Shown here in pieces: positions 25,140-45,136 of a stretch of DNA of 52,517 nucleotides. Made by a program: the position numbers and the translations under genes. The notes below the pieces were generated by a model. That model was not told where the DNA came from, ran no database searches, and worked only from the letters and a program-made list of their open reading frames with translations. Each line of letters starts with the position of its first letter. The stretch's first letter is position 1. Origin of the DNA: an uncultured Clostridia bacterium (GTDB taxonomy: Bacteria; Bacillota; Clostridia; Christensenellales; Borkfalkiaceae); the NCBI GenBank assembly GCA_930990665.1, contig CAKNQN010000010.1, positions 1-52,517 of the forward strand. Reading direction: 5' to 3'.

Positions 25140-25304
25140 GCGCCGCGCATACCGTGCGGGCTCGCTCGTATGCAGTTTCGAGCCGCCCCGCCGATCGGAT
25201 GCGCGCGCCGCGCATTGAACGGTGCGCCGTGTGCGCCATATCGGGCTGCGCCCGCACGGAGCGGGCATTGCTTTTGCGGAGGGCACCAAGGAGAAGAAGG
25301 ATCT

Positions 25305-27470
25305 ATGAAGACGGCGGAAGTGATCGTGGACATCGGTCACAGCGAAGTGGACAAGATATTTGAATACAGCGCGATCGACGGCGTAAAGGAAGGCTGCCGT
25401 GTGCGCGTCCCCTTCGGCCGCAAGGTCATAGACGGGTATGTGATGCGCCTGAAAGAGGGGAGCGAGATCGACCCCGCGCGGCTCAAGCCGGTGGCCGAAG
25501 TGGTGGACGAGGCGCTCACGCCCGAATGTCTGCGCCTTGCAGAGCATCTGGCCGCGCGCTATCATTGCCCGAAGGCGATCGTTTTGCGCCTCTTTCTGCC
25601 GGCGGAAATGCGGCGGGGAGCGGTGCATGCGCGCTATACGCGGCTGGTGGAGATCGGCGCGCCCGCCGAAATTCCCGCCCGCGCCAAGGCGCAGGCGGCG
25701 GCGTATGCCTGGGTGCAGGAAAAGGGCGCTTGCGATTACACGCGGCTGTGCGAGAGGTTCGGCCGCGGCGCGGTGAACGCGCTTTTGGAGAAGGGGGCTC
25801 TTTCCGAGCGGAAAGAGCGCGCCTTCCGCAGACCTTACGAGGGGGCGGAAGGGAACTTTGTGCCCCGCCCGCTCACGCCGTCGCAGCAGGAGGTGATCGA
25901 AAAGATCGGCGCATCCGAAAAGACGGTGCAGCTTCTGCACGGCGTCACGGGCAGCGGCAAGACGGAGGTATATCTCAACCTGATCGCCGCGGCGCTCGCG
26001 GCGGGCAGGAGCGCCATCTTTCTGGTCCCCGAGATTTCGCTGACGCCGCAGATGCTCTCGCAACTGCGCGCCCGTTTCGGGCGGCAGGCGGCCATCCTGC
26101 ACAGCGGGCTGTCGGCGGGAGAAAAGTTCGACGAGTGGCAGAGGCTGCGCATGGGCGAGGCGAAGATCGCCATCGGCGCGCGCAGCGCCGTGTTTGCGCC
26201 CGTCGAGAATGTCGGCGTCATCGTCATCGACGAGGAGCACGACGGCAGCTATTCCAGCGAACAGAACCCGCGTTACAATACGGCGGAAGTCGCGCTCATG
26301 CGCGCGCAGTACAACGGCTGCAAGCTCATCCTCGGCAGCGCCACCCCTTCGGTGGAGACCTATCGGAAGGCGGTGGAAGGGGAGTATGAGCTTCTGGAAC
26401 TTCCGGAGCGCATCAACCGCCGCCCCATGCCCGAGATCGAGATGGCGGACATGCGTCGGGAAGTGCGCCGGGGCAATGATTCCGCCTTCTCATCGGCGCT
26501 CCGCGAAGAACTGGAAAAATGCCTGCAAAGCGGCAACCAGGCCATCATCTTTCTCAACCGCCGCGGCTTTGCCCAGAGCGTGGTCTGCCGCGAATGCGGC
26601 GCCGTGGTCAAGTGCGCCCAGTGCGACGTCCCGCTCACCTATCACAGCGAAGAGGGGTGCCTCAAATGCCACTATTGCGGCACGAGTTACCGCATGCTCA
26701 CCGCCTGTCCCGAATGCGGCGGCGTGCATCTGAGCTACCGCGGCACGGGCACGCAGAAGGTGGTCGGAGAGCTGAAAAAGCTCTTTCCCGCCGCGCGCAT
26801 CCTGCGCATGGACGTGGATACCACAGGCGGCAAGGAGGGGCATTTCCGCATCCTGAAAAAGTTTGCCGCGCACGAGGCGGATATCCTTGTCGGCACGCAG
26901 ATGGTCGCCAAGGGGCATGATTTTCCGTCGGTGACGCTGGTGGGCATCCTCGATGCGGACATGAGCCTGCATTTTTCCGATTACCGCAGCGGCGAGCGTA
27001 CCTTTCAGCTGGTGACGCAGGTCGCGGGTCGGTGCGGCCGTGCCGAAGAAAAGGGGATCGTCATCCTGCAGACGTACGATCCGGAAAATTACATCCTGCG
27101 CTTTGCCGCTCATTACGATTACAAGGGCTTTTTCCGCCACGAGATCGAACTGCGGAAGGCCACCGCTTTCCCGCCGTTTGCGCGCATCGTGCGCGTGATG
27201 GTGGTGGGCGAAGAGGAAAAAAAGGCGCTCGAAGTCCTCAAAGAGGTGTATTTTTCGCTCAAAGAGCTGTTCGACGCTAATCGCGGGGAATTTTTGTTTT
27301 TCAATAAAATGAAATCCCCCGTCAAGATGATCCAGAACAAATTTCGCTATCAGGTGCTCATGCGCCTGAAAAGCGACGCGCTCCTGCCGCAGATCTACGA
27401 CCGTTCGCTCGGCAAAAAGACGCGCGACGTCAACGTCTATGTCGAAGAAGATCCGGCGAATCTGAGCTGA
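25305..27470 (+). CDS. priA: Primosomal replication-restart helicase
   Basis: 721 residues. PriA recognises stalled forks and reloads the replicative helicase. The N-terminal fork-binding domain (VDIGHSEVDKIFEYS...VRVPFGRKVIDGYV) precedes helicase motifs GVTGSGKTEVYL (Walker A), EISLTPQM, IDEEHD (DEEH box) and GSATPSVE. The eight-cysteine zinc-binding insert (CRECGAVVKCAQCD...CHYCG...CPECG) and C-terminal motifs GTQMVAKGHDFP and QVAGRCGRAEE follow. ATG 25305 follows AAGGAGAAGAAGG and matches the family start. No promoter was found in the gap after the rpoZ terminator. Confidence 0.97.
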   Translation: MKTAEVIVDIGHSEVDKIFEYSAIDGVKEGCRVRVPFGRKVIDGYVMRLKEGSEIDPARLKPVAEVVDEALTPECLRLAEHLAARYHCPKAIVLRLFLPAEMRRGAVHARYTRLVEIGAPAEIPARAKAQAAAYAWVQEKGACDYTRLCERFGRGAVNALLEKGALSERKERAFRRPYEGAEGNFVPRPLTPSQQEVIEKIGASEKTVQLLHGVTGSGKTEVYLNLIAAALAAGRSAIFLVPEISLTPQMLSQLRARFGRQAAILHSGLSAGEKFDEWQRLRMGEAKIAIGARSAVFAPVENVGVIVIDEEHDGSYSSEQNPRYNTAEVALMRAQYNGCKLILGSATPSVETYRKAVEGEYELLELPERINRRPMPEIEMADMRREVRRGNDSAFSSALREELEKCLQSGNQAIIFLNRRGFAQSVVCRECGAVVKCAQCDVPLTYHSEEGCLKCHYCGTSYRMLTACPECGGVHLSYRGTGTQKVVGELKKLFPAARILRMDVDTTGGKEGHFRILKKFAAHEADILVGTQMVAKGHDFPSVTLVGILDADMSLHFSDYRSGERTFQLVTQVAGRCGRAEEKGIVILQTYDPENYILRFAAHYDYKGFFRHEIELRKATAFPPFARIVRVMVVGEEEKKALEVLKEVYFSLKELFDANRGEFLFFNKMKSPVKMIQNKFRYQVLMRLKSDALLPQIYDRSLGKKTRDVNVYVEEDPANLS

Positions 27471-27494
27471 TGAACGCTCATTAAAGCCGCTGAT

Positions 27495-27614
27495 AGCACC
27501 GTGCGGCGGTGTCGCCCACGGAATCGGACGAAAGATTTTTGTCAGCACGAAAAGCTCTCGCCGAGAAAGACTCACGGAAAAATCGTGAACTCTATTCACA
27601 ATTTTTCGTGAACA
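27495..27614 (+). ncRNA. Partial copy (3' half) of a structured repeat element, unit 0
   Basis: Bases 27495-27618 match 27776-27899 at the same length (124 bases). Differences in the first 86 bases number only three, with more inside the terminal hairpin. The unit contains the AGCACCGTGCGGCGGTGTCG block, the 44-base module with GACGAAA/TTTTGTC pairing, and the 38-base terminal hairpin (27573-27610), and ends CGTGAACA. Its 5' half is missing. The strand given is the relative orientation of the family, not proof of the transcribed strand. Confidence 0.75.
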
Positions 27615-27895
27615 TAAATTATCTCTCGCGCAAGGCAAAATCACTTTTTTGCCAAAGCGCCCCCGATTAGCCGAAAACGTTCGGCTTTCGGGAAGAGGGT
27701 GAATTTGCGGCTTTGCAATTTTTTGAGCCCATAAAATAAGCCGCAAAGAGGGAGAAAACGCCGACAGGCGCGGGTAGCGCCGTGCGGCGGTGTCGCCCAC
27801 GGAATCGGACGAAAGATTTTCGTCAGCACGAAAAGCTTTCGCCGAGAAAGACTCACGGAAATTTTACGGACTCTTTCCGTAAAATTTCGTGAACA
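27615..27895 (+). ncRNA. Structured repeat element, unit 1 (281 nt)
   Basis: Full unit between two CGTGAACA ends. Stems in order: GGCAAAA/TTTTGCC (27634-27653, loop TCACTT); AGCCGAA/TTCGGCT (27669-27686); TTTGCGGCTT/AAGCCGCAAA (27704-27747) enclosing GAGCCC; an irregular stem GGG..CGCCG / CGGCG..CCC around a GGCGC/GCGCC hairpin; a 44-base extra module with GACGAAA/TTTCGTC; and the 38-base terminal hairpin CACGG-11 bp-ACTCTTT-CGTG (27854-27891). Corresponding stems in units 2 and 3 differ in sequence yet still pair. No protein-coding frame is credible. Function unknown. Confidence 0.75.
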
Positions 27896-28132
27896 TAAAA
27901 TAATATTCGCGTTTCCGCAAACCACGTTTTGCGGAAAAAGCCCCCGATTTGCGCGTTAAGCGCCCCGGGCGGAAAAGGGGAATGCCGCGTTTTCTATAAA
28001 GGAGAGCCCTTGAAAAGAACGCGGCAGAGGAAAAACCGAGCGCCGAGCCGCCGCAAAGCGTGCGGCGAACGGTGGGTTTTTCCTAAAATTCACGGAAAAT
28101 TTAAGAACTCTTTTCTTAAATTTTCGTGAACA
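27896..28132 (+). ncRNA. Structured repeat element, unit 2 (237 nt)
   Basis: Tandem to unit 1 and ending 16 bases before the def start codon, so the conserved GAACA end abuts the AGGAGG ribosome site. Stems: TTTCCGCAAA/TTTGCGGAAA (27912-27937, loop CCACGT); GCGC/GCGC (27951-27963); TGCCGCGTT/AACGCGGCA (27983-28026) enclosing GAGCCC; GGAAAAACC/GGTTTTTCC (28029-28083) around CGCCGCA/TGCGGCG; terminal hairpin 28091-28128 with a perfect 11-bp stem. The 44-base module of unit 1 is absent. The whole 27471-28148 gap is taken up by units 0-2. Confidence 0.75.
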
Positions 28133-28148
28133 ACTTATAGGAGGAATT

Positions 28149-28601
28149 ATGGCGATCAGAAACGTAGTACAGGAAGGCGACGAAGTCTTGCGCAAAAAAT
28201 GTTTTGAGGTGACGGCGTTTGACGAGAAGCTCGGGACCCTGCTGGATGACCTGCGCGACACGGTGCGCAAGGAAGAGGGAGCGGGGCTTGCCGCGCCGCA
28301 GGTGGGGGTACTCCGCCGCGCGGTGGTCGTCGACGTTCCCGAGGGCTTTTTTGAGATGGTCAACCCCGTCATCGTCGAGGCCAAAGGGGAACAGACGGGC
28401 TGGGAAGGCTGTCTTTCCGTGCGCGGGAAGCGCGGCGTCGTCACCCGTCCGAACATCGTCAAAGTGGAATTTTCCGACCGCAAGGGCAAGCGCAAGAAAC
28501 TCACGGCGCGCGGCTTTTTCGCGCGCGCCGTCTGCCATGAGCTCGACCATCTCGACGGCATTCTCTACATCGACAAGGCCGAGCGCATGGACAGGGATTG
28601 A
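28149..28601 (+). CDS. def: Peptide deformylase
   Basis: 150 residues. Removes the formyl group from nascent protein N-termini. The three family motifs are intact: GAGLAAPQVG (near residue 44), EGCLS with the metal-binding cysteine, and HELDHLDG with two metal histidines and the catalytic glutamate. ATG follows AGGAGGAATT. It forms an operon with fmt, 12 bases downstream. The structured repeat elements lie directly upstream and would be part of any leader from the priA side. Confidence 0.97.
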   Translation: MAIRNVVQEGDEVLRKKCFEVTAFDEKLGTLLDDLRDTVRKEEGAGLAAPQVGVLRRAVVVDVPEGFFEMVNPVIVEAKGEQTGWEGCLSVRGKRGVVTRPNIVKVEFSDRKGKRKKLTARGFFARAVCHELDHLDGILYIDKAERMDRD

Positions 28602-44838: not shown

Positions 44839-45075
44839 TGTTCTCGAAAATCTCGGCGAGTTGTCGCCTGCGATTTTCCGAGAGTTGAGGGCGACACCGC
44901 CGTTCAAATGCTGACGCATTCTCTGCGGCGTTTTCTCCCTCTTTGCGGCTTATTCTAAGGGCTCCAAACTATTACATAAAGCCGCAAATTCACCCTCTTC
45001 CCACAAGCCAAAGCGTTGGCAAATAGGGGTGCGCTGCGGGAAAGTGTGATTTCCCTTGCGCGAGTAAATAATTAA
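44839..45075 (-). ncRNA. Structured repeat element, unit 3, opposite orientation (237 nt)
   Basis: Read on the minus strand this matches units 1 and 2 at 27615-28132. Shared features are TCGCGCAAGG near the 5' end, AGAGGGTGAATTTGCGGCTT, GAGCCC, AGAGGGAGAAAACGCCG, CGGCGGTGTCGCCC and the end CGAGAACA. Its stems are GGGAAA/TTTCCC (45038-45055), GCCAA/TTGGC (45007-45020), TTTGCGGCTT/AAGCCGCAAA (44942-44988), AATGC/GCATT, and terminal CTCGGAAAATC/GATTTTCGAG with the same unpaired G. It lacks the 44-base module, like unit 2. It fills most of the 44835-45136 gap. Confidence 0.75.
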
Positions 45076-45079
45076 AGTT

Positions 45080-45116
45080 TTCGCGTTTCTCGCGGGGTGG
45101 CGTTGCGAAACGCGAA
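45080..45116 (+). other. Hairpin ahead of the aldolase gene, ending CGCGAACA
   Basis: 10-bp stem TTCGCGTTTC / GAAACGCGAA with a 17-base interior, running into CGCGAACAAAATTT and then the ribosome site AGGAGGA. The end resembles the CGTGAACA end of the structured repeats, but on the plus strand, and sits where unit 2 sits relative to def. Confidence 0.5.
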
Positions 45117-45136
45117 CAAAATTTCAGGAGGATAGA

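Follow-up and report, generated by a model that had tools for sequence, protein, structure and literature searches.

A dispersed non-coding hairpin repeat of gut Clostridia, conserved in shape rather than in stem sequence and probably mobile

Integron attC sites are folded single strands with extrahelical bases and variable stems, traits that the repeat described here appears to share, although no cassettes were seen with it. Among interspersed bacterial repeats, REPINs are inverted doublets of REP sequences and are held to be the mobile form (PMC3116915), and a TnpA-REP enzyme recognizes one strand by its GTAG motif and, in one group, also by a bulge (PMC8266576). The BOX, RUP and SPRITE elements of pneumococcus (PMC3049150) and bacterial MITEs (PMC10969869) are interspersed, intergenic and extensively structured, mostly lack a gene of their own and are probably parasitic, and our repeat resembles them in these respects. 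The consensus of Gut-1 RNA has variable hairpins connected through conserved GUGAAA linkers, and Gut-1 together with the STAXI motif (PMC2864571) offers a parallel of repeated or serial structured units with unassigned function. Finally, the 92 stem-loop sequence families of Cozzuto et al. (2008; PMC2267715) are, like our repeat, repeated sequences with a common secondary structure and a mostly intergenic location.

With REP, REPIN and BIME sequences (PMC3116915; PMC8266576), our repeat has in common an extragenic position, high copy number, inverted doublets, an irregular pair or bulge in some hairpins and, probably, strand-specific folding. It differs in that the unit is several times longer, comprises five hairpins and has nearly free stem sequence, in that a GTAG foot is not the rule, and in that Y1 transposase does not track copy number. 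From BOX elements and MITEs it may be set apart by two ends that share shape more than sequence, and neither a target-site duplication nor a parent IS came to light in the elements read. At gathering score, neither Gut-1 nor any other Rfam family matches the window. One sub-threshold Gut-1 match (28.8 bits, gathering score 50; E 0.0023) that preserves every GUGAAA linker lies near but not in the units of another locus (L343:164-301, genome G219), and a partial sub-threshold T-box match is also near. Among the literature titles listed as matches, none described repeats of this genus.

The window, by which we mean the whole analysed stretch of 52,517 nucleotides from an uncultured Clostridia bacterium (Christensenellales; Borkfalkiaceae), contains a priA-def gap of 678 bp that holds one 5'-cut unit and two full units, all in gene direction, and the AGGAGG and ATG of def stand shortly 3' of the end of unit 2 (Table 1). 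The first-pass annotation had described tandem structured elements at this place, and the motifs and stem pairs it quoted are present in the sequence. Absent from it were a third window copy and the genome-wide spread of the repeat. This third copy has a hairpin at either end, its outermost letters read GTTC...GAAC (by eye), and CAGGAGGATAGAATG is found directly to its right. The eight neighbouring proteins scanned with Pfam are all housekeeping (DNA ligase, YicC, PriA, peptide deformylase, formyl transferase, RsmB/F, a radical SAM protein and ribulose-phosphate epimerase), and for those eight the earlier remark that no transposase gene is near is correct. The outer end of the last hairpin, P6, abuts or overlaps the apparent ribosome-binding site of the next gene in the window (28129-28148) and in genome G016 (L248:10127, L257:15857, L260:4806).

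Table 1. Positions of the repeat units, their parts and the flanking genes in the window
Feature	Position	Strand	Remarks
priA	25170..27470	+	Upstream flank, outside the element; Pfam PriA_3primeBD, DEAD
Unit 0	27486..27614	+	5'-truncated inside P4; D1 84% to unit 1, D2 75%
Unit 0, P4 remnant		+	
Unit 0, extra P6-like hairpin	27525..27563	+	
Unit 0, P6	27571..27614	+	
Unit 1	27626..27895	+	Full; R2 match 27627-27754, E 1.6e-27; fold z -7.3
Unit 1, P1	27628..27660		
Unit 1, P2	27670..27685		
Unit 1, linker	27697..27703		GGGTGAA
Unit 1, P3	27704..27747		
Unit 1, P4	27748..27798		
Unit 1, extra hairpin	27806..27844		
Unit 1, P6	27853..27892		
Unit 2	27908..28132	+	Full; R2 match 27908-28033, E 1.3e-27; fold z -6.4
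Unit 2, P1	27909..27941		
Unit 2, P2	27951..27963		
Unit 2, P3	27983..28026		
Unit 2, P4	28027..28084		
Unit 2, P6	28090..28129		
def	28149..28601	+	Downstream flank, outside the element; Pfam Pep_deformylase
Third window copy	44840..45117	-	Single unit; core 44935-45062

A full unit strings together the hairpins P1 to P4, ends in the 3' hairpin P6 and measures about 225-270 nt. The conserved unpaired and linker parts are the P1 loop (AAA-YCRCRCT-TTT, of the YCRC type), CRATTTG before P2, and GTGAA and GAGG, which frame P3 on its 5' and 3' sides. P4 is long and irregular, with irregular internal loops (by eye). In 191 distinct candidates the P4 arms pair with the true partner at 980 of 1337 positions, compared with a mean of 765 and a maximum of 792 in 200 shuffles, a comparison that favours the observed value because the 3' end was picked for best pairing. 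In its typical form P6 starts with TCNS and a single bulged purine, followed by a stem of about 12-14 bp whose sequence is almost free, a short loop and finally GNGA. Searching for this form gave P6 in 73 of the 110 units; of the 57 distinct ones, 44 have a bulged G and 9 a bulged A, and the 746 cells of their inner stems include 728 Watson-Crick pairs, 10 G-U pairs and 2 A-C mismatches. Genome G016 (1.61 Mb) has 30 P6-form hairpins, 26 of them at most 230 nt downstream of a core, and its reversed sequence has none; 13 of 40 G016 cores lack P6 by the strict pattern, with a variant visible by eye in several. A candidate CACCC/GGGTG helix around P2 would suit many of the copies but not the CCCCC/AGGTG group, and a look by eye gave no support for a pseudoknot of the P3 loop. 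In another genus of the family (G243 and G157; L328-L331, L342), P1, P2 and a P6-like hairpin are kept, and in most copies read a short hairpin of the TTGTC..GACA type takes the place of P3.

Both full units fold far better than dinucleotide shuffles (z in Table 1; none of 200 shuffles was as good for either), and for unit 2 the opposite strand gives a fold almost as good (z -6.1). The covariation of the repeat copies is strong. Over 85 distinct copies and 22 pairs, 95.8% of the cells are standard pairs, against 67.8% after partner shuffling. The paired change of stems around shared loops, first noted in two units between priA and def, thus extends as paired change to the whole set. Changes on both sides of a pair occur in 438 cells of this set, compared with 136 after shuffling, and sliding the partners by 1-3 columns reduces pairing to 34-50%. 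In a second set of 132 distinct copies, partly overlapping the first, 94.4% of the cells are paired; both alignments were fitted to a model and lean towards its structure. The value for 45 copies from other genera and families, weak matches included, is 93.4%, again in an alignment that leans towards the model. The MAFFT alignment A1, made without model fit, yielded only 11 RNAalifold pairs, all in P1 and P3, of which 10 show two-sided changes, with a consensus energy of -6 kcal/mol and stems partly out of register. A1 comprises 74 of 122 nhmmer matches, leaving out partial, duplicate and edge matches and L022, which has a long insert; A2 (23 copies) and A3 (15 copies) are subsets picked by hand, and one of the analyses covered 54 of 115 loci. 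Alignments A4-A7 partly overlap (20 of 323 rows are repeats), and A5-A7 contain weak matches, some from the opposite strand of the same hairpins. The strong covariation together with the conserved unpaired motifs supports the initial description of a selected structured nucleic acid.

The 5213 pair cells of 303 distinct cores, counted without three ragged outer P1 pairs, comprise 4986 Watson-Crick pairs and, on the unit strand, 118 G-U pairs and 33 A-C mismatches; A4 alone, with those outer pairs included, has 29 G-U and 15 A-C. Counted once per locus and pair, and minus one lineage-fixed G-U pair, the numbers are 69 G-U versus 33 A-C (P 0.0005, to be taken as a guide only, since the copies are related; 13 of the 33 A-C cells fall at one loop-closing pair). 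This excess suggests that the unit strand is probably the one that folds, either as RNA or as single-stranded DNA. The G-U share of the cores is 2.3%, below the 7.3% found in the tRNA stems of G016 (48/658), and RNA is thus not favoured over single-stranded DNA. That the repeat is a new ncRNA, one of the two candidates of the first-pass annotation, is possible, and the low G-U share would fit single-stranded DNA equally.

The same counts bear on an origin by mutation alone, in which template switching, arm-to-arm repair and exchange between copies would keep palindromes in register with no selection on shape. The near-perfect Watson-Crick stems are in line with such a process, as is the occurrence of P3 and P6 as whole-stem alleles in G017 units that are otherwise about 95% identical; with P3 present as two whole-stem alleles, two paired changes appear together. 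However, it does not predict the strand asymmetry of G-U over A-C, the loops and linkers are conserved while the stems diverge, and the P6 bulge recurs, and we consider this origin quite improbable. At two G017 loci (L304, L305), the 5' and 3' arms of P6 come from different alleles and the pairing is lost, which may reflect exchange in the loop or mis-assembly.

The family is a dispersed non-coding repeat, present in dozens of gut-lineage genomes and without an entry in Rfam. The window has no match above gathering score in Rfam 15, which agrees, as far as tested, with the earlier failure to place the units in a known RNA class. A relaxed scan of the window region returned only chance-like matches, and with 13 related loci added (11 with units) there was no credible match on the units. 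In the genome of the window (a 1.5-Mb draft, 74% complete) there are 26 BLAST matches to the stretch, itself and many partial pieces counted. Covariance models of P1-P3 were built from 15 copies (R1) and from 86 (R2). R2 core matches number 20 in this genome, and G016 has 53 core matches in 1.61 Mb, a few of them weak or overlapping. The search of related genomes that had been suggested at the outset gave R1 matches in 35 of 37 same-genus genomes, own genome included, and in 1 of 24 genomes of other families; at most 57 candidates were scored per genome, so that high counts are lower bounds. The same-genus genomes G002 and G005 had no R1 match.

Of 297 genomes sampled from the order, with 11 candidates evaluated in each, R2 matched 27, of which 2 belong to the own genus and 25 lie outside it, 15 in other genera of the family and 10 in five other families; two of these ten matches are weak (E 4e-4 and 8e-4). 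Of 391 genomes sampled from the class, with 8 candidates evaluated in each, 5 matched, four within the family and one, weakly, outside the order. An exact-pattern genome scan found 28 stretches, 3 titled Candidatus Borkfalkia and 25 titled uncultured Clostridia bacterium. The plasmid and phage collections had no blastn match to the window stretch at E 1e-5, and viral_contigs had none to one exact 22-base pattern. All data are MAGs or drafts, in which repeats may be mis-assembled. Flanking genes differ widely among the loci read. One locus (L052, G001 C11) is a tandem array of three full units with a 281-bp period that adjoins a tmRNA match, and in G000, G016 and G017 a unit lies upstream of a gene that we take to be rbgA-like.

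The presence of units at one site, priA-def, varies between relatives. Of 22 same-genus genomes in which the priA-def gap was readable, 3 have units there, 1 has only P6 remnants and 18 are unit-free, with gaps of 11 to 177 bp. In G017, ten similar units are spread over nine places, and on the P6 side eight of them pass into flanks that differ; the best 12 of 45 unit pairs are 94.7-97.4% identical over the first 190 nt. The ten similar units at nine places, together with the 18 unit-free priA-def gaps, indicate that the repeat probably moves. The second candidate of the initial reading, a hairpin-based mobile element, gains support from this presence and absence between priA and def, from the dispersal and from very similar copies at separate places. 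Target-site duplications were not seen by eye in four elements (G017 L298, L302 and L303; the third window copy), and seven cases read out of 30 unit-bearing G019 loci mapped on G016 gave no clean empty site, showing replacement, remnant hairpins or unrelated differences.

Units occur singly, in tandem and inverted. The 22 unit adjacencies of G016, weak matches included, are -+ in 12 cases (one pair overlapping), -- in 6, ++ in 4 and +- in none; P6 hairpins therefore face outward in all 12 opposite-strand neighbour pairs. A composite of up to four units (- - + +) with ends GTTCAC...GTGAA(C) recurs whole or in part at several places in G017, and the outer ends of the elements read are GTTCNCG/CGNGAAC with hairpins, the stems of the two ends being different. 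By eye, several arrays have a first unit truncated within P3 or P4 and finish on an intact P6, namely priA-def in the window, L052, L035, L050, L097, the rpsL-rpsG gap of G008, G011 and G012, and four G122 loci. Only 4 of 30 P6 hairpins in G016 have no core upstream (one of them a likely false match), so that 5' truncation is not the rule in that genome, and units cut at the 3' side are found inside arrays in L029 and G017.

These layouts can be set against a functional structured RNA, an RNA gene or leader that has multiplied and is kept for a host role, with mobility secondary. Twenty-two copies from other genera and families, inspected by eye, keep the P1 loop in 22 cases and the GTGAA linker in 14, the internal loops of P4 resemble RNA motifs by eye, and the unit strand has more G-U than A-C, all of which would suit an RNA with a function. 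On the other hand, both orientations occur within one array, the neighbouring genes are many and different, most relatives are unit-free at priA-def, G002 and G005 manage with no match, and the G-U share is low. We regard such an RNA as an unlikely, though substantial, alternative to a mobile repeat.

No enzyme that might move the repeat was identified among Y1_Tnp, RVT_1 and Transposase_20 in 40 genus genomes, since none of the three tracks copy number; the genomes are drafts, and absences of an enzyme are accordingly soft. Y1_Tnp (PF01797) occurs in 23 of the 40, including copy-rich G008, G013, G016 and G018 (1, 4, 2 and 3 genes), was not found in six other copy-rich genomes (G001, G009, G017, G026, G032, G035) and is present in the zero-match genomes G002 and G005 (5 and 3). 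A REP- or REPIN-type element moved by a Y1 (RAYT) transposase, already disfavoured, would fit the extragenic position, the inverted doublets, the hairpin with an irregularity, the high copy number and the Y1 genes of those four carriers. Against it stand the distribution of Y1_Tnp just described and the size of the unit, about 225-270 nt where 20-40 nt would be expected. When both strands are read up to 8 nt 5' of the hairpin, the 30 G016 P6 hairpins show GTAG in 2 cases and GGAG in 2. Of the REPIN features, then, inverted doublets are found here, whereas the 20-40 nt size, the GTAG/GGAG foot and a Y1 gene throughout the copy-rich genomes are not, and we give this identification very little credence. 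The element may still resemble REPINs in its possible mode of working; with this resemblance and these departures in size, GTAG and Y1, we assign it to a new family within a known general kind, the hairpin-based non-coding mobile repeats, in which the shape is conserved and not the stem sequence.

RVT_1 was found in 4 of the 40 genomes (G005, G023, G028 and G036, with 0, 15, 27 and 4 matches, respectively) and in none with at least 50 matches. A retro-element copied from RNA and shortened at its 5' end, as in target-primed reverse transcription, would produce the several arrays that open truncated and close with an intact P6, but rolling-circle copying would give the same picture and RVT_1 was not found in the richest genomes; we hold a retro-element to be highly improbable. 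The IS110 transposase (Transposase_20, PF02371) is present in 6 of 40 genomes, including copy-rich G008 and G013 and zero-match G002, and was rejected as the mover because its presence does not track copy number. An outward pair about 1.6 kb apart in G016 was considered as an autonomous element, and the enclosed genes look host-like by eye; among the loci read there was no autonomous copy carrying an open reading frame.

We consider it likely that the repeat is a non-coding, high-copy mobile element whose recognized feature is its folded shape. We infer that a dedicated enzyme would bind the folded unit strand, as single-stranded DNA at the replication fork or as RNA, and would recognize it by the bulge, loops and linkers rather than by the letters of the stems, so that the stems may drift while staying paired. 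If copying began at the P6 end, this would explain the arrays with a 5'-cut first unit and an intact terminal P6. The match between the two arms would be maintained in part by exchange between copies and perhaps also by hairpin-templated repair. The majority of copies are probably passive, although those within operons should affect the transcripts in which they lie.

Only tentatively do we propose a fuller model, in which a new sort of mobile element, to date found almost exclusively in one Clostridia order, would have its ends read as single-strand folded shapes, namely a 3' hairpin with a bulge and a core of four hairpins whose loops and linkers are fixed and whose stems are near-free. It would spread by means of an enzyme as single, tandem and outward inverted units, copied from the 3' hairpin backwards, leaving 5'-cut copies. 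The family lends itself to a natural test of how recognition by shape could relieve a mobile element of the need to conserve its sequence. Strong covariation side by side with signs of mobility also cautions against taking covariation by itself as proof of a host RNA gene, and copies that sit in operons will probably influence how these genomes are assembled, annotated and expressed.

Two further sequence features were noticed among the loci. The rpsL-rpsG spacer of 17 same-genus loci contains, by eye, a conserved CCTACTTGT..GTAGGCAGTATGCCG..GCAAGCGATAGCTGTACT, for example just after rpsL in L086, L090 and L101; three loci scanned had no Rfam match at E up to 1, and the spacer is possibly a ribosomal-protein leader. 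A second repeat family, with the hairpin AGGGCTCCC-AAAAAGT..ACTTTTTGGGAAGAGGAGGAGCCGCC or alike, is nested by eye in P3 or P4 of some units, in G016 (C14:10400-10900, C6:64130-64650 and C4 near 104100, L249) and in G000 (C3:4235-4353, L006).
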